From Verrucomicrobiota bacterium (lineage in GTDB: Bacteria; Verrucomicrobiota; Verrucomicrobiia; Opitutales; Opitutaceae): DNA of 64,000 nt. Below are positions 21,995 to 28,213 of this stretch, in pieces. The notes under the pieces were generated by a model that was given only the letters and a program-made list of their open reading frames with translations, was not told the origin of the DNA and made no database searches. The stretch covers positions 62,001 to 126,000 of the forward strand of contig JACRKC010000073.1 in the NCBI GenBank assembly GCA_016235555.1, given 5' to 3'. Numbering within the stretch: position 1 is the first letter of the stretch; the number at the start of each line of letters is the position of its first letter. A program made the translations under genes and the position numbers.

Positions 21995-22801
21995 TCAGCG
22001 GCCCTTCACCGATCGGCGCGAGATTTTCGGCCGCGGCGTTTGGGCGGCGACCATGGTGGCGTCGTCGCTCATTCCCTTTTTGATGAAGTCGACGCCGGGC
22101 GACGGCGTCCGCACCTTGATATCCTTCGCCACCACGGAGTCTTTTCCGATCATCTCCACCGTAGCAGAGGCGATGATCGGAAGATATTTCCGGAGATCCT
22201 TGCTCTCATCCTCGGTGCTGCTGTGGATGCTCCACAATTGCGCCGGAGGTTTTCCCTCCGCGGCTGGTTTGTTGTCCCGTGCGGTGATGCGGAGGTATTT
22301 TTCGTAAACGACCACTTCGCGCGGCACTTCATCAAAGCCCACGAGTTCGGTGCGTGGTGGCTCGTAGACCGCCACGGTGCGGGTGCTCGTGACGCCCCGG
22401 CTGCTGGTGACGGGCACCTGTTCATAGCGCACGCCGCCTCCCACCTGGGCATAAACCGGCACGCTCACACGCTCGATCTTGGTGCGCGGAGCGGCCACAC
22501 CATAATCGAGTTCGACAATCATGTCCGCCGTCTCAGCCGTGGGTGCCTCGTAAAGCCCGCGACCGGACAGCGCCGTCTTGATAAACTCCGCCGCTTCCTG
22601 GTGGCGCAGGCTGTCGTCGGCGAGCGCGGCCCCCTTGCTGTGCAGCTTGTAGGATTGGGCCTCCGCGCTTGCGACCGCATCAGCCTTGGAAACCGCGTCG
22701 ACTTTCACGCGGTAGGTCGTTCCGGTGCACCCGGCGCACAGCACTGCCACGGCCATCGGACACCACGCCAGCGCACTACTGCCGGAGGGACTCGCTTTCA
22801 T
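21995..22801 (-). CDS. Lipoprotein of unknown function
   Basis: A 268-residue protein with a lipoprotein signal ending LCAGC near residue 25. No family was recognised. The mature region is mostly soluble, with a central segment rich in Val and Tyr (RVSVPVYAQVGGGVRYEQVP) and a basic C-terminus (RPKISRRSVKGR). It lies 88 bp downstream of another lipoprotein gene (22890-23576) on the same strand. Both are divergent from the ExbB/vWA cassette, so a role at the envelope alongside that cassette is possible but only suggested by position. Confidence 0.7.
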   Translation of the reverse strand: MKASPSGSSALAWCPMAVAVLCAGCTGTTYRVKVDAVSKADAVASAEAQSYKLHSKGAALADDSLRHQEAAEFIKTALSGRGLYEAPTAETADMIVELDYGVAAPRTKIERVSVPVYAQVGGGVRYEQVPVTSSRGVTSTRTVAVYEPPRTELVGFDEVPREVVVYEKYLRITARDNKPAAEGKPPAQLWSIHSSTEDESKDLRKYLPIIASATVEMIGKDSVVAKDIKVRTPSPGVDFIKKGMSDDATMVAAQTPRPKISRRSVKGR

Positions 22802-22889: not shown

Positions 22890-23576
22890 CTAGTTTCCTG
22901 GCTTCACCGCGGCCGATGGTGCCGGTGGCGATGCCTCGAGTTTCTTTTCGGCCGTCGTCGGGACCGCTGACGCCTTGGCCGTCGGGTCTTCACCTTTGAG
23001 GCGGGCGAGTTCCTCCTCCAATTGCGCGATCTTGGCCTCGGTCTGCAGCGTCTTCTCCTTCGCATCATCCAAGGCCAGTTTCTTGGCCTTCGCTGCGGCC
23101 CGTTCGTCCTCCAGCCGCTTCAGCCGGTCCTTCACGGACTCGAGTTTCTTCTGGGCGTCGTTCAGCTCGATGTCGGAGATGCGGAAGCCTTGGGCGATCG
23201 CGAGTTCCTCCTCCATCTCCGCTTTGCGGCGCGCTTCTTCACTCCGCTTTTTTGCGAGATCCTGCTGGTAGGCCCGCTCCTGCGCCAGCCGGTCCTGTTC
23301 TTTGCGGTCTTTCGCTTCCTGCACGAGACCGACGATGCCGCCGATCAATGCGCCGGCGCCGGCGCCGACCGCCGCACCGGTGCCCGTGCCCATGCTGCTG
23401 TTGCTGCCGACGACCGCACCGCCCAGGCCACCGATCACCGCGCCGGTGCCGGCGTTCGACGCGGTCTTTGACGGCGCCACGCCCGACGAACAGGCGCTGG
23501 TGAACAAAACCGCGCACGCGACGGCGGCGCAGCCGGTGTGTTTTAGTCTCGAATGGGGAACGGGGAACAGCGACAT
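22890..23576 (-). CDS. Glycine-zipper lipoprotein with coiled coil
   Basis: A 228-residue protein with a lipoprotein signal (CAVLFTSAC near residue 29), a glycine-zipper membrane segment at about 42-85 (GTGAVIGGLGGAVVG then GTGAAVGAGAGALIGGIVG), and a long charged region at about 88-200 rich in Glu, Lys and Ala with heptad-like spacing, likely a coiled coil. The tail is Pro/Ala-rich. Glycine-zipper lipoproteins of this kind (for example SlyB- or YMGG-type) act in the envelope. It starts 202 bp from the divergent ExbB-like gene, so the two probably share a regulatory region. Confidence 0.75.
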   Translation of the reverse strand: MSLFPVPHSRLKHTGCAAVACAVLFTSACSSGVAPSKTASNAGTGAVIGGLGGAVVGSNSSMGTGTGAAVGAGAGALIGGIVGLVQEAKDRKEQDRLAQERAYQQDLAKKRSEEARRKAEMEEELAIAQGFRISDIELNDAQKKLESVKDRLKRLEDERAAAKAKKLALDDAKEKTLQTEAKIAQLEEELARLKGEDPTAKASAVPTTAEKKLEASPPAPSAAVKPGN

Positions 23577-23778: not shown

Positions 23779-24633
23779 ATGACTTCCAAAAACAAGGGGT
23801 TTCTTTCCCTCGAGTTCCTGGTGCCGATCTTCGCGTTCGTCACCTCGGTCGTCTCGATTCACTTTCTCTACAAGTTCGTGGTCACGCCACGGGCGCATGA
23901 GTTGGAGCTCCGGCGCAGTGTGTTGATGAAGCAAGGCGCCATCGACAGCAGTGAAGTCAAGGCCCGGTCGGTCTTCCTGGTGATCAAGGATCTCGAGCCC
24001 CAGTTCGAGATCGTGTTCACCTTCTGGGGGCTGATGATCCTCGGCTACAAAATGGCCCAGGTGCAGCGGGAGCGGGCGATGTTCAAGCACGACCTGCTCC
24101 GCCTCCATCCCGGCGAGCGCGTGATTCCGGAAGATGCGCTGGATCGATACAAGGAAATCAAAAATACGCTCGAGCGGCGGCCGGAATGGCGCGACCGCCT
24201 GCTGGCCGAGTGCCAGCTCGCCGCCCTGCACCGCTTTCACGCCACGTCCTCGATCCAGGACGCCGCCAACGCCGTGCGCGAACGCGCCGAACTTGCCGCC
24301 GACCACCTCGACTCGGGCCTCGGTCTGGTCCGCTACATCGCGTGGGCGATTCCGGCCATCGGGTTCATCGGCACGGTGCGCGGCATCGGCGATGCCCTGA
24401 CGTTCGCCGAGCAGGCGATCAAGGGCGACATCTCAGCCGTCACGACGTGGCTGGGTCTCGCGTTCAACTCCACGTTCGTCGGCCTGGCTCTCTGCATCGT
24501 GTTGATGTTTGTGTTGCATCTGGTGCAGGGACTGCAGGAGTCGCTGGTCATCGATACCCAGACCCACTGCCGGGACAAACTCATCGACCTGATGAAGGTG
24601 CCCACGAAGGAAGAGTCCGCCACCTTTGCCTGA
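23779..24633 (+). CDS. MotA/TolQ/ExbB-like proton-channel protein
   Basis: A 284-residue membrane protein with four predicted segments: about 12-34, 76-93, 183-202 and 223-250. The last two carry the MotA_ExbB pattern: IPAIGFIGTVRGIGDALTFA and TTWLGLAFNSTFVGLALCIV, with the Pro/Gly of the third helix and the Thr/Ser of the fourth helix expected near a proton path. The 90-residue cytoplasmic loop is charged. ExbB, TolQ and MotA form pentamers that turn proton flow into force on a partner with an Asp-bearing single helix. No ExbD or MotB gene is present, but the two downstream vWA proteins have an Asp at the start of their only helix. First gene of a four-gene operon. Confidence 0.82.
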   Translation: MTSKNKGFLSLEFLVPIFAFVTSVVSIHFLYKFVVTPRAHELELRRSVLMKQGAIDSSEVKARSVFLVIKDLEPQFEIVFTFWGLMILGYKMAQVQRERAMFKHDLLRLHPGERVIPEDALDRYKEIKNTLERRPEWRDRLLAECQLAALHRFHATSSIQDAANAVRERAELAADHLDSGLGLVRYIAWAIPAIGFIGTVRGIGDALTFAEQAIKGDISAVTTWLGLAFNSTFVGLALCIVLMFVLHLVQGLQESLVIDTQTHCRDKLIDLMKVPTKEESATFA

Positions 24634-24644
24634 ACCTTCCGCCC

Positions 24645-26129
24645 ATGCCCAATACGCTCGGACTGGAACTCTGCGACGCCGGCTTCATCACCGCCAGTTG
24701 CGCCCAAGGTGAACCCGCCCTCCTCGGCATCCCCGATCGCACCGGCGCCACGGACTGGCCCGGATTCGTGTATCATGAGGGTGCGGACTACACCTTCGGG
24801 CGCGCCGCCGAGGACATGTGGTTCGTCCACCCCCGGAGGGTCGCGCACACCTTTTGGTCCAAGCTCGCCCATGAGCCCTCCGCGCTCACCGTCGCCGGCA
24901 AGCCGCCCTCGTTTTCCGAGCTCGCTTTCTTTTTTCTTCGCGAGTTCGCCCAGCGCCTCGCCGCGACCGCCGGTCCTTGCGAAAAGCTCGTTCTCGCGGT
25001 GCCCGGCGCTTATCTGAAGGATACCGCCACCGAGGACGAAAAGATCGGCCTGCTGCTCGGCATGGCGGATGAGTTGAAGCTTCCGCTGGCCGGCATCGTG
25101 GATCTGGGCTGTGCCGCGCTGTGCGATCCGCGCTCGCCGGGTTTCAACGTCGCCCTGCCCATTGTGGTGGTGGATGTGCAACAGGAGGGCACGGATTTTT
25201 CCCTGTTCGCCGTCGACGAACAACTCGAGCGCCAGCATTTCCTTCATCTGCCCAACTCCGGTTACGTGCCGCTGTTCAAGCATCTCACGGCGGCGATGGG
25301 AAATCGTTTCCTCCGGCACACGGCGTTCGACATCCTGGAGGATGGCCGGATCGAGCAGACCTTTTTTCGCCAGACCAAGAATTTCTTCCTCGGAGGCGCC
25401 GCGGAGCACCGGTATCAAATCAACACCGCCACGCGCAACTATGAGATGCTCGCCAAGCAGGACCAGCTGGCCGGCGATGCGCAGGCGTTCATCAACACCC
25501 TCGTCCAGGCCCTCCACTCATTCCTCGATCACGCCGCGCAGACTCCGGCCCTCTGCACGGTCGCGCTGACGGCGCGCACCTCCGCCCTGCCCGGAATCGA
25601 TGCGCGCTTGAAGGCGGCGGGGTTCGGCCGCCAGTTGCGCCTCCACCCCGGTGCCGCCGCGTGCGGTGCCGCGCGAATCGGGTTTAACCGCCTGCAGGTG
25701 CCGGCCGACATCTCCGAAGTCTCGGTCGCCATTTCGGTTCCACTCAGTGACACCCGCCGGCTCGCCGCCGCGGCCTGCGAAACCAGACTGCACAAAGCCC
25801 GCCACGCGGGGGCGCCGCCGCTGCCGACCCATGCCATCGTCGACGGCATCGGCCACGACCTCGCGGGCCACGGCGCCTTCACGATCGGCGGCGCCGGTTC
25901 GGGTGCGCACCTCGTTTTGCCTGATTCGTTTTCCCACTCGGCCGACGCCTCGGTTGCCCTGGTCCGCGAAAATGGCCGCGTGTGGTTCGTCGAGCCGCCC
26001 GGGCCCGGCACAGGCGGCGCCGCCTCCCGCATCCCGCTCGGGGCGGGTGATCGGCTGGCGTTGCGCTGCGGAACGGCGGCGGCCGAAATTCTCTTCGCGC
26101 ACTGCCCGTCGCCGGGGTCCAGCCGCTAG
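24645..26129 (+). CDS. Divergent actin/Hsp70-fold protein with FHA-like C-terminal domain
   Basis: A 494-residue soluble protein. The N-terminal ~370 residues look like a strongly diverged ASKHA (Hsp70/FtsA) fold: TLGLELCDAGFITAS at the start (phosphate-1-like), and PIVVVDVQQEGTDFSLFAVD at about 167-186 (phosphate-2-like, but the usual DxGGGT glycines are replaced). The last ~90 residues, with FTIGGAGSGAHLVLPD, FSHSADASVALVRENGRVWF and IPLGAGDRLALRCG, follow the FHA fold order, although the Arg and Ser/His that read phosphothreonine are not clearly preserved. It lies 11 bp after the channel gene and 18 bp before the first vWA gene. ATP use and phospho-peptide binding are guesses. Confidence 0.55.
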   Translation: MPNTLGLELCDAGFITASCAQGEPALLGIPDRTGATDWPGFVYHEGADYTFGRAAEDMWFVHPRRVAHTFWSKLAHEPSALTVAGKPPSFSELAFFFLREFAQRLAATAGPCEKLVLAVPGAYLKDTATEDEKIGLLLGMADELKLPLAGIVDLGCAALCDPRSPGFNVALPIVVVDVQQEGTDFSLFAVDEQLERQHFLHLPNSGYVPLFKHLTAAMGNRFLRHTAFDILEDGRIEQTFFRQTKNFFLGGAAEHRYQINTATRNYEMLAKQDQLAGDAQAFINTLVQALHSFLDHAAQTPALCTVALTARTSALPGIDARLKAAGFGRQLRLHPGAAACGAARIGFNRLQVPADISEVSVAISVPLSDTRRLAAAACETRLHKARHAGAPPLPTHAIVDGIGHDLAGHGAFTIGGAGSGAHLVLPDSFSHSADASVALVRENGRVWFVEPPGPGTGGAASRIPLGAGDRLALRCGTAAAEILFAHCPSPGSSR

Positions 26130-26147
26130 GCCGCCGGGGTTTCCCTC

Positions 26148-27215
26148 ATGTCCGTCGCCGCCAAACGCCGCGAAACCGAGGTCTTCTCCCTCGCCTTCCT
26201 CGACTGCATCTGCTGCGGCTTCGGCGCCGTTCTGCTCGTTTTCATCCTCTCGATCAGCCAGAAGATCAACATCGACAAGACCGATGTCGACGAACTGAAG
26301 GCCCGCGTCGACCAGATGAAGCGCGACGTCAACCTCAGTCAGGCGGAAATCGATCGCCTGGCAAAAATCCTCGCGGCCGCACAGCTCGAGCTGGAAGACG
26401 AAAACTCGAAGAACAATCGCGACCAGCTCAAGCTGACCGATCGCCAGCGTGAACTGCTGCTCATGCTCCAGCAGACCGGAGCGATGAAGGATGCCCTCGA
26501 CCGCCTGCTCGGCGAGAAAAAGGCCCTGCCGACGGAGGACCACGCACCGATTCCCATCCCCAATGTCGACCGGCGCCAATACCTCACCGGGGTGAAACTC
26601 CACGGCGAGTTTGTGGTTTTTCTGGTCCGCGCTTCCGGCTCCATGCTGGACGAGACCATCGAAGGCGCCACGAACCGTCTCACCGATCCCGATGTAAAAA
26701 AACGCGAAGCCCCGAAGTGGCGCCGCACCATTCATGCCCTGCAGTGGATGATCGCGTCGCTCGACCCGGCGACGCGTTTCCAGATTTTTTTCTACAACGA
26801 CGAGACCACCTGTGTGCTCGAAAACCGCGCCGACGAGTGGTTCAGCACGACCGACAAGAAGACCGTCGGGGAGATCGTGAAGCGACTCGACACGGTCGTC
26901 CCGCAGGGAGGCGCCAATCTCGAGCGGGCCTTCACCACCGTGCGGTATCTCCCGAAACTGCCCGACAGCATCGTGCTGTTTACCGATGGTCTCCCCACCA
27001 GGAGCGATTCCCTGCCCTTCGACGGCGACGTGGGCCCCGAGCAGCGGATCCGATTCTTCGAGGTCGCGAAAACGCAACTGCCGCCGCATATCCCGGTCAG
27101 CACGATCCTGTTTCCCTTCTCCGGCGACCCCGCCGGCCCGGCCATTTTCTGGGAACTCGCCAACGCCACCCGCGGCGCCCTCGTCAGCCCGTCCAAATCC
27201 TGGCCCGACACATGA
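26148..27215 (+). CDS. Membrane-anchored vWA protein with degenerate MIDAS
   Basis: A 355-residue protein with one N-terminal membrane helix (about 12-36, LAFLDCICCGFGAVLLVFIL), a coiled coil at about 45-125, and a vWA domain from about 150 to the end. The metal-binding MIDAS motif should read DxSxS, but the sequence here is VRASGSML: Arg 161 (codon 26628-26630) replaces the metal-ligand Asp. The later TDGLPTR loop (VLFTDG) is conserved. It is paralogous to the next gene, whose MIDAS is intact, so the pair could form an asymmetric dimer. Asp 19 lies within the membrane helix. Its TGA overlaps the next ATG (27212-27215). Confidence 0.8.
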   Translation: MSVAAKRRETEVFSLAFLDCICCGFGAVLLVFILSISQKINIDKTDVDELKARVDQMKRDVNLSQAEIDRLAKILAAAQLELEDENSKNNRDQLKLTDRQRELLLMLQQTGAMKDALDRLLGEKKALPTEDHAPIPIPNVDRRQYLTGVKLHGEFVVFLVRASGSMLDETIEGATNRLTDPDVKKREAPKWRRTIHALQWMIASLDPATRFQIFFYNDETTCVLENRADEWFSTTDKKTVGEIVKRLDTVVPQGGANLERAFTTVRYLPKLPDSIVLFTDGLPTRSDSLPFDGDVGPEQRIRFFEVAKTQLPPHIPVSTILFPFSGDPAGPAIFWELANATRGALVSPSKSWPDT

Positions 27216-28213
27216 TCCGCCGCCGTCCCACCCAGGTCTTCAGCCTCGCGTTCCTCGACTGCATTTGCTGCGGCTTCGGCGCGGTCATCCTCATCTTTGT
27301 CCTGAGCATCGACTCCAAGGAAAAGGAAAAACTGCACCTGCTCGAGGATCTGCGGAAGATCATGGCCGCCCAGCTCGCCCAGCTCGCCCAGCTCAAGGCC
27401 AACCGTGACGACCTCGATCGCAGCAACGCCCGGGTGGCCCAGCTGGTGATCGATGCCCGGCTGAAAAACGACACGATTCACGCCCTGCTCGCCGACCTGG
27501 ATCGAAAAATCTCCAGCGAGAAAAAAGGCCAGGAGGCGTTGCTGGTCGATATCGACGAACTCAAAAAGGAAATCGCGGCCCGCCAGAAGAAGCCCGAGAT
27601 GGTCCTGCCCGACGTGAAACCAGCGCCCGTCGGCCTCACGGTGGGCCAGAATTACATCGCGTTTGTGATCGATACTTCCGGCTCCATGCGCGACCCGAAC
27701 ACCGGCGGTCTCTGGAGCATCGCCATCCGCAAGATTGAAGAGGTGCTCGACGTCTATCCCCAGGTCTCCGGCATCCAGGTGCTCAACGCGGACGGCGGAT
27801 TCGTGCTCGGCACGCGGGGGGGCACCGGCTGGCTTCCCGACAACCGCGAGGTGCGCGACCAGATCAAACGCACGCTCCGCCGCTACGATCAGGACACCAT
27901 CTCCAATCCCGTCCCGGGGATCTACCGCGTCCTCCGTTCCCTCTACAACAAGGACGATCCCAACATGAAACTCGGCATCTACGTTTTCGGTGACGAGTTC
28001 ACCGAGACCGCCGACGCGGTGATCAGGCGGCTCGACGAATTGAATCCCGAGGACGAGAACGGCAACCGCAAGGTCGTGATCAACGCCGTGGGTTTTCCGA
28101 CGACCATTCGGTTTACCTTTTCGATGGGCAACACGGGCGTGAAGTTCGCCAATCTCATGCGTGAAGTCTGCTTCCGCCACGGGGGGGCCTTTATCGCCCT
28201 CCAGGATTTGTAG
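27212..28213 (+). CDS. Membrane-anchored vWA protein with intact MIDAS
   Basis: A 333-residue protein with the same layout as the preceding gene: an N-terminal helix LAFLDCICCGFGAVILIFVL (about 12-31, Asp 16), a coiled coil at about 35-125, then a vWA domain. FVIDTSGSMRDP at about 151-162 gives a full DxSxS MIDAS, so metal-dependent ligand binding is likely. The domain has a long insertion around residues 185-245 (GWLPDNREVRDQIKRTLRRY). A TAG stop lies in GTAGCGG, similar to repeat edges elsewhere, but no clear palindrome follows. Last gene of the four-gene cassette; with the channel protein it may form a proton-driven envelope machine. Confidence 0.85.
   Translation: MIRRRPTQVFSLAFLDCICCGFGAVILIFVLSIDSKEKEKLHLLEDLRKIMAAQLAQLAQLKANRDDLDRSNARVAQLVIDARLKNDTIHALLADLDRKISSEKKGQEALLVDIDELKKEIAARQKKPEMVLPDVKPAPVGLTVGQNYIAFVIDTSGSMRDPNTGGLWSIAIRKIEEVLDVYPQVSGIQVLNADGGFVLGTRGGTGWLPDNREVRDQIKRTLRRYDQDTISNPVPGIYRVLRSLYNKDDPNMKLGIYVFGDEFTETADAVIRRLDELNPEDENGNRKVVINAVGFPTTIRFTFSMGNTGVKFANLMREVCFRHGGAFIALQDL

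Follow-up and report, generated by a model that had tools for sequence, protein, structure and literature searches.

The window analysed here is a 64,000-nucleotide stretch of the genome of a Verrucomicrobiota bacterium of the Opitutaceae (contig JACRKC010000073.1, positions 62,001 to 126,000). At its positions 23,779 to 28,213 lies a cassette of four plus-strand genes, here called g1 to g4, that encode a TolQ/ExbB/MotA-like channel subunit, a cytoplasmic protein with the fold of an Hsp70 nucleotide-binding domain, and two vWA proteins whose N-terminal helices resemble those of ExbD and MotB. On balance, we favor as its product a proton-driven 5:2 trans-envelope motor, similar in kind to TolQ-TolR, ExbB-ExbD and MotA-MotB, with the g2 protein as a regulatory, cytoplasmic pseudo-Hsp70. 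The coordinates bear out the tight spacing described in an earlier note on this DNA: 11 bp separate g1 (23779..24633, 284 amino acids) from g2 (24645..26129, 494 amino acids), 18 bp separate g2 from g3 (26148..27215, 355 amino acids), and g3 and g4 (27212..28213, 333 amino acids) overlap by 4 bp.

Conservation of the cassette

Related loci were gathered by similarity to g3 and g4, which yielded 98 loci, the contig-scan part of which consists of the best 80 of at least 349 confirmed relatives. The genes follow one another in the order g1-g2-g3-g4 in 71 of the 98 (70/94 without near-duplicates), and the core genes found share one strand in 98/98. Thinned counts, here and below, leave out near-duplicates; near-identical g4 pairs occur at L047/L049, L048/L125 and L086/L087. 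Co-occurrence in other genomes, on which the earlier note had staked its reading in advance, is thus seen at the 71 loci that hold all four genes. Because order and strand are shared to this extent, a chance neighborhood is rejected, and the cassette is a conserved set. The notion that the four genes are independent neighbors can draw on the absence of g2 from one group of Opitutales and on nothing further; set against the common order and strand, and against the co-occurrence without linkage of the TPR gene described below, it deserves practically no credence.

Of the other loci, 12 lack g2, 12 are truncated where their contig ends, one has a split g3 (L146) and two lack g1. In an order-level sample, 18 of 132 genomes have a g4-type match, and two such matches were found in 17 of these 18. 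In a phylum sample, a strong g4 match is present in 23 of 387 genomes, all 23 of which also have a g3-type match (in G268 on another contig), the remaining 18 genomes tallied having weak g4 matches. The g2 gene is present in 19 of these 23 cassette genomes; the four that lack it belong to one family, and among the 98 loci it is lost in one group of Opitutales. A scan of genome contigs confirmed at least 349 of 593 candidate stretches, and the best 80 of these come from Opitutales, Kiritimatiellia, Woeseiaceae, Halieaceae, other Gammaproteobacteria and Desulfobacterales-type records, with g2 adjacent to g1 also in relatives from other phyla.

The channel subunit

The g1 protein belongs to the MotA/TolQ/ExbB family, as the earlier note had proposed. 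It passes the Pfam MotA_ExbB model (PF01618) with 50.2 bits against a cut-off of 22.9, and its predicted structure, with a predicted local distance difference test (pLDDT) score of 90.9, has the TolQ fold over residues 60-284. Residues 60-282 of the model superimpose on TolQ (8odt_A) with a Z score of 14.6 (4.1 Å over 210 residues), as compared to Z scores of 10.5 for ZorA and 9.1 for MotA (6ykm_A), and a helix at residues 11-51 is an additional N-terminal element beyond the TolQ fold. Foldseek by itself returned no match for g1 at E ≤0.001, the top entry being a TolQ-TolR structure at 2.3e-3. Both ion-path threonines are present: T199 of the GTV motif and T232 of the FNST motif, each kept in 85/85 sequences, align with the threonines of the TolQ GTV and IAT motifs.

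A similar channel is also part of Zorya defence, and g1 does have weak ZorA matches in PADLOC (best 3.4e-4, 17.7 bits) alongside its fold match at Z 10.5. However, ZorB, ZorC and ZorD match nothing in g2-g4 at E values up to 1, in agreement with the earlier note, and PADLOC run on a relative of the cassette (L114) matches its kinase only (PD-T4-6 and other kinase models). No relatives were found in phage records, nor among viral contigs, of which 112 stretches fit the search pattern with none confirmed, and no g4 relative was found in plasmids. We therefore reject Zorya or another defence system as an identity for the cassette, and regard a Zorya-like anti-phage role as very improbable.

A distant g1 relative (E 1.6e-35) was seen on the Rhizobium leguminosarum plasmid pRlBT01d (L196:2910-9383), followed by a gene for a 245-residue protein with a similar pore-type helix; upstream of it, inspection by eye suggests FHA-, PP2C-type phosphatase- and kinase-like proteins. 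This set is perhaps another phospho-regulated 5:2 motor.

Two vWA proteins with pore-type helices

Both g3 and g4 encode a short N-terminal segment, a hydrophobic helix, a stalk and a vWA head. The starts of the two proteins (FSLAFLDCICCGFGAV...) are alike, and an 83-nt pore-helix stretch is 80% identical between the genes; scans for promoters, terminators and DNA repeats returned nothing apart from this stretch. The helices (26187..26255 in g3 and 27242..27310 in g4, plus strand) carry an aspartate, Asp19 in g3 (codon 26202-26204) and Asp16 in g4 (codon 27257-27259), that precedes the hydrophobic run at the same position as in the MotB (VAYADFVTAMMALFMVLWIS) and ExbD (IIPLIDVIFFLLATFVLF) helices of the same genome. 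This residue is conserved in 93/93 g3 and 96/97 g4 sequences, with glutamate in the one remaining g4 (90/90 and 93/94 after removal of near-duplicates). The segments N-terminal to the helices are basic, which fits a topology with the N terminus in the cytoplasm and the vWA head in the periplasm.

By these features, the vWA proteins themselves bear an ExbD/MotB-type pore helix. The earlier note had stated that no ExbD/MotB partner is encoded with the channel. That part stands as far as domains are concerned: profile searches of the genome found six MotA_ExbB, five ExbD and one MotB protein, and the cassette contig (C38) carries no ExbD or MotB match. It falls short in that the N-terminal helices of g3 and g4 have the features of the partner, and the note's suggestion of the vWA proteins as moving partners is supported as likely.

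A different arrangement would place the vWA proteins outside the g1 ring as side arms of the TolA/TonB kind, with an unlinked ExbD supplying the axle. PMC12204202 reports a first vWA family of this kind, whose tolR-like genes are separate, and in the genome studied here one ExbD (on C132) has no MotA_ExbB match on its own contig, just as one ExbB (on C80) has no partner match on its own. The pore-type aspartate is nevertheless almost invariant in both vWA helices, the SHLS motif is not seen in the g3 and g4 sequences of the window, and no ExbD lies on C38, so that we judge the side-arm arrangement improbable.

The vWA heads score below the Pfam cut-off of 27 bits (g3, 23.0 bits; g4, 17.2 bits), but vWA motifs are visible in both alignments, and both proteins can be assigned to the vWA group, as had been supposed. 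Their metal-ion-dependent adhesion sites (MIDAS) differ. In g4 the DxSxS motif (DTSGS at 27671..27685, within an intact DTSGSM) is kept at Asp, Thr, Ser and the last Ser in 97/97 sequences, whereas in the g3 of the window the aspartate is replaced by arginine and the threonine by alanine, so that the metal site is lost. Among the g3 sequences the two positions covary: Asp occurs with Thr in 50/93, Glu or Arg with Ala in 43/93, and mixed combinations in none. Since the g4 site is universally kept while Asp and Thr are lost together from many g3 sequences, the two heads are unequal, and in Opitutales metal-dependent binding is likely confined to g4.

The loss of the g3 metal site and its threonine in 43 of 93 sequences would suit a binding function more than a mechanical one, and this bears on a further explanation, that the cassette encodes a sensor or adhesion complex in which the channel is a regulated leak or a scaffold, the vWA heads bind a ligand, and g2 together with the kinase and FHA parts signals inward. 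The vWA, FHA, TPR, kinase and PEGA domains found at these loci are all typical interaction or signalling parts. The ion-path residues, however, are fully conserved, which suggests that ion flow matters, and we consider a sensor or adhesion complex unlikely as compared to the motor described above.

The Hsp70-fold protein g2

A Pfam search with g2 alone returned no match. When the PDB was searched with a family profile built from 50 g2 sequences, the top Hsp70 was Ssz1 (4.3e-9), with DnaK and other Hsp70s also matched, and the FHA domain of Ki-67 was found at 4.8e-7. The predicted structure of g2 (pLDDT 92.9) superimposes on Ssz1 (7x3k_B) with a Z score of 33.9 (2.9 Å over 343 residues), and many other Hsp70s give similar values. 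The Hsp70 nucleotide-binding-domain fold covers residues 1-352 (24645..25700), and a β-rich FHA-type tail covers residues 385-487 (25797..26105), with modelled strands at 396-485. The earlier description of g2 as an actin/Hsp70-like protein with an FHA-like tail is thereby confirmed.

The ATP-binding loops of g2 are degenerate at the positions taken to be those of the nucleotide-binding motifs of Hsp70. The first loop is largely retained (Asp11 in 46/50 and Gly13 in 40/50 sequences). In the second, phosphate-2 loop, Asp177 is kept in 44/50 but the GG that should follow it is gone, and the adenosine loop has likewise lost its GG and reads LSxRAAxLPGL. Because the glycines of these two loops are gone, g2 is best read as a pseudo-ATPase, and we reject a catalytic Hsp70 on the same motif loss. 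The phosphate-2 loop of many relatives (L114 and others) reads HLDLHLH, with histidine at the three places in 36, 21 and 35 of the 50 sequences, an odd substitute for the Hsp70 glycine loop.

The tail varies among relatives. Pfam finds an FHA match in 3 of 11 g2 members (best 2.8e-5), a strict GxSxxH motif is present in 16/50 members, which come from gammaproteobacterial and Desulfobacterales-type loci, and the tail is missing from g2 of L109 and L160. An apparent g2 in a genome without the cassette (G481) turned out to be a DnaK-like protein (with 'GIDLGTTYSS') and was removed from the g2 count.

Accessory and divergent genes

Further genes accompany the cassette in relatives, and were counted at the 39 loci outside Opitutales that hold g1 and at least 4.7 kb of upstream sequence. 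A TPR gene and a PEGA/formylglycine-generating enzyme (FGE) gene lie upstream on the same strand in 39/39 of these loci, and a gene for a lipoprotein of ~400 residues is present in 37/39; after thinning at 90% the counts are 37/37, 37/37 and 35/37, respectively. Of the TPR-family members scanned (n = 26), 23 have a TPR domain and six a protein kinase domain, while both PEGA and FGE domains were found in 18/18 scanned members of the PEGA/FGE family.

The TPR gene tracks the cassette even when unlinked. In several Opitutales loci its homologue lies downstream of the cassette on the opposite strand, and in the genome of the window it lies on another contig (C125:69141-70715, E 7.3e-131). Members of this family (E ≤1e-40) occur in 24 of the 387 genomes of the phylum sample, and 22 of these are among the 23 cassette genomes; the hypergeometric value for the association is 1.5e-32, a figure that ignores shared ancestry and whose gene set also took in the false g2 of G481. 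The two outside the 23 are G422, where a lipoprotein-TPR-PEGA-g1 series stands at the end of a contig, and G065, whose TPR match is weak and has no cassette gene nearby. On C125, the TPR gene adjoins genes for two predicted secreted proteins of 379 and 283 residues with no NCBIfam match. This trio (L190:5139-8827) also adjoins the cassette in L085, L096 and L098.

Alignment of the lipoprotein family against the genome of the window gave no match, and alignment of the PEGA/FGE family gave weak partial matches only, with no such gene found near the window's cassette. In relatives, the NCBIfam model that the FGE part matches best is GldK/PorK (1.4e-24, far under the cut-off), and in a PDB profile search true formylglycine-generating enzyme (4.5e-32) comes out ahead of PorK (3.4e-26), at the top of the list. 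Since the enzyme outscores PorK, we treat a GldK-type ring as an analogy only and reject it as an assignment.

Divergent from the cassette are two lipoprotein genes, as the earlier note had said. The first, lipo1 (22890..23576, minus strand), has a glycine-zipper match of 27.8 bits, under the Pfam cut-off of 28.9, and the second, lipo2 (21995..22801, minus strand), has a weak DUF4136 match. Of the 41 Verrucomicrobiota loci holding g1, 35 encode a lipo1 homologue on the opposite strand (33/38 without near-duplicates) and 22 have a lipo2 homologue. At 14 loci (L107, L110, L115 and other gammaproteobacterial ones), a glycine-zipper coiled-coil protein of ~240 residues is encoded directly downstream of g4, and recalls lipo1.

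A proposed machine and its limits

Based on these results, we propose that five g1 chains surround a pair made up of g3 and g4, whose N-terminal helices would form the axle. The axle aspartates and the g1 threonines would carry the proton path, and proton flow would turn or rock the axle, with the helical stalks passing this movement outward to the two vWA heads in the periplasm. The heads may work against partners in the outer membrane or wall, for which the divergent lipoproteins are candidates. The g2 protein would most likely dock on the motor at its cytoplasmic base, as a regulator, and its FHA tail could read phosphorylation because a kinase-TPR protein is encoded beside g2 in some relatives.

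A fuller, more tentative picture can be drawn, which we regard as possible but rather doubtful. In it, the cassette is part of a phospho-regulated rotary trans-envelope machine, where a TolQ-like pentamer turns a heterodimeric, vWA-headed axle, the Hsp70-derived pseudo-ATPase with its FHA tail acts as a cytoplasmic clutch or assembly switch, and the transmembrane TPR protein (with or without a kinase domain), the PEGA/FGE protein and the lipoproteins make up the sensory and periplasmic side, the TPR part being included even where it is encoded elsewhere. If true, it would give the 5:2 motors their first member with an Hsp70-fold partner. Phospho-regulation would in any case be limited to a subset of these systems, since g2 is lost in one family, the FHA motif is degenerate in Opitutales and kinase domains are rare.

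Several observations weigh against the proposed motor. All locus counts are conditional on g3 and g4, the queries with which the loci were collected. The g2 gene is not indispensable, as g1-g3-g4 occur without it in 12 of 98 loci, and in the window its own FHA motif is degenerate, having lost SxxH, while a kinase domain is present in just 6 of the 26 scanned TPR proteins. The ExbD on C132 is a conceivable partner for the channel. In addition, tblastn finds no g1 at L038, which has only g3-g4 despite 9 kb of upstream sequence, or at L155, which has g2-g3-g4; a vWA pair without a channel gene may reflect gene loss or misassembly.

Comparison with known systems

Few ion-driven 5:2 motors exist (the flagellar stator, Ton, Tol, Gld and Zorya), each driving an envelope task of its own. 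The cassette would add a conserved member with a vWA-headed axle and a cytoplasmic Hsp70-fold partner, whose range takes in Verrucomicrobiota, Gammaproteobacteria and Desulfobacterales-type bacteria at the least. With its genes for a channel, two vWA axles, a pseudo-Hsp70, TPR and PEGA/FGE proteins and a lipoprotein listed, its function is directly testable in culturable relatives such as Seongchinamella and Pelagicoccus, both of which occur among the cassette records.

The core of the system is already in print as a prediction. In PMC12204202 (2025), TolQ-like genes are reported beside heterologous vWA pairs in Proteobacteria and Verrucomicrobia, with no tolR, and these vWA proteins carry a pore-type helix with its aspartate and were modelled with AlphaFold 3 as 5:2 complexes. 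The second vWA family of that paper, TPH-vWA + tolQ (Fig. 4c-d), which is founded on Idiomarina sequences, shares with the cassette a tolQ-like gene, two different vWA genes, the pore-helix aspartate and the lack of tolR, exbD or motB, a likeness of gene set and helix features. A term search of that text found no Hsp70-like gene, kinase, PEGA or sulfatase-type domain, and its sole 'FHA' is FhaC. The earlier note missed that the core had been proposed before, and also that the system includes g2 and additional genes. In searches of openly licensed PMC papers, we came upon no account of the Hsp70-like gene or the accessory genes, and a term search for vWA or Willebrand returned no mention in three further papers on these motors (PMC9389320, PMC12505986 and PMC12905483).

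Among characterized systems, TolQ-TolR-TolA and ExbB-ExbD-TonB share with g1 the channel fold (closest to TolQ) and the threonines of the GTV and IAT type. The cassette differs from them in that the predicted axle helix is fused to vWA heads, g1 has an extra N-terminal helix and a cytoplasmic Hsp70-like protein is present, and the TolR/ExbD gene that is the hallmark of Tol-Pal and Ton beside the channel gene is not found on C38. With the MotA-MotB stator the cassette shares the aspartate at the start of the axle helix and the extra N-terminal helix of the channel subunit, although the fold match is weaker and a vWA domain takes the place of the peptidoglycan-binding OmpA domain, which was not called in the cassette. 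The 5:2-type channel fold is also common to ZorA-ZorB of Zorya, whereas ZorB, ZorC and ZorD were not found in the cassette, and GldK/PorK, the ring protein of gliding and type IX secretion, is comparable only by way of the PEGA/FGE gene that relatives carry. Finally, within the Hsp70 family g2 stands nearest to Ssz1, with which it shares the nucleotide-binding-domain fold, but its ATP loops are degenerate, and it carries an FHA-type tail rather than an evident substrate-binding domain.

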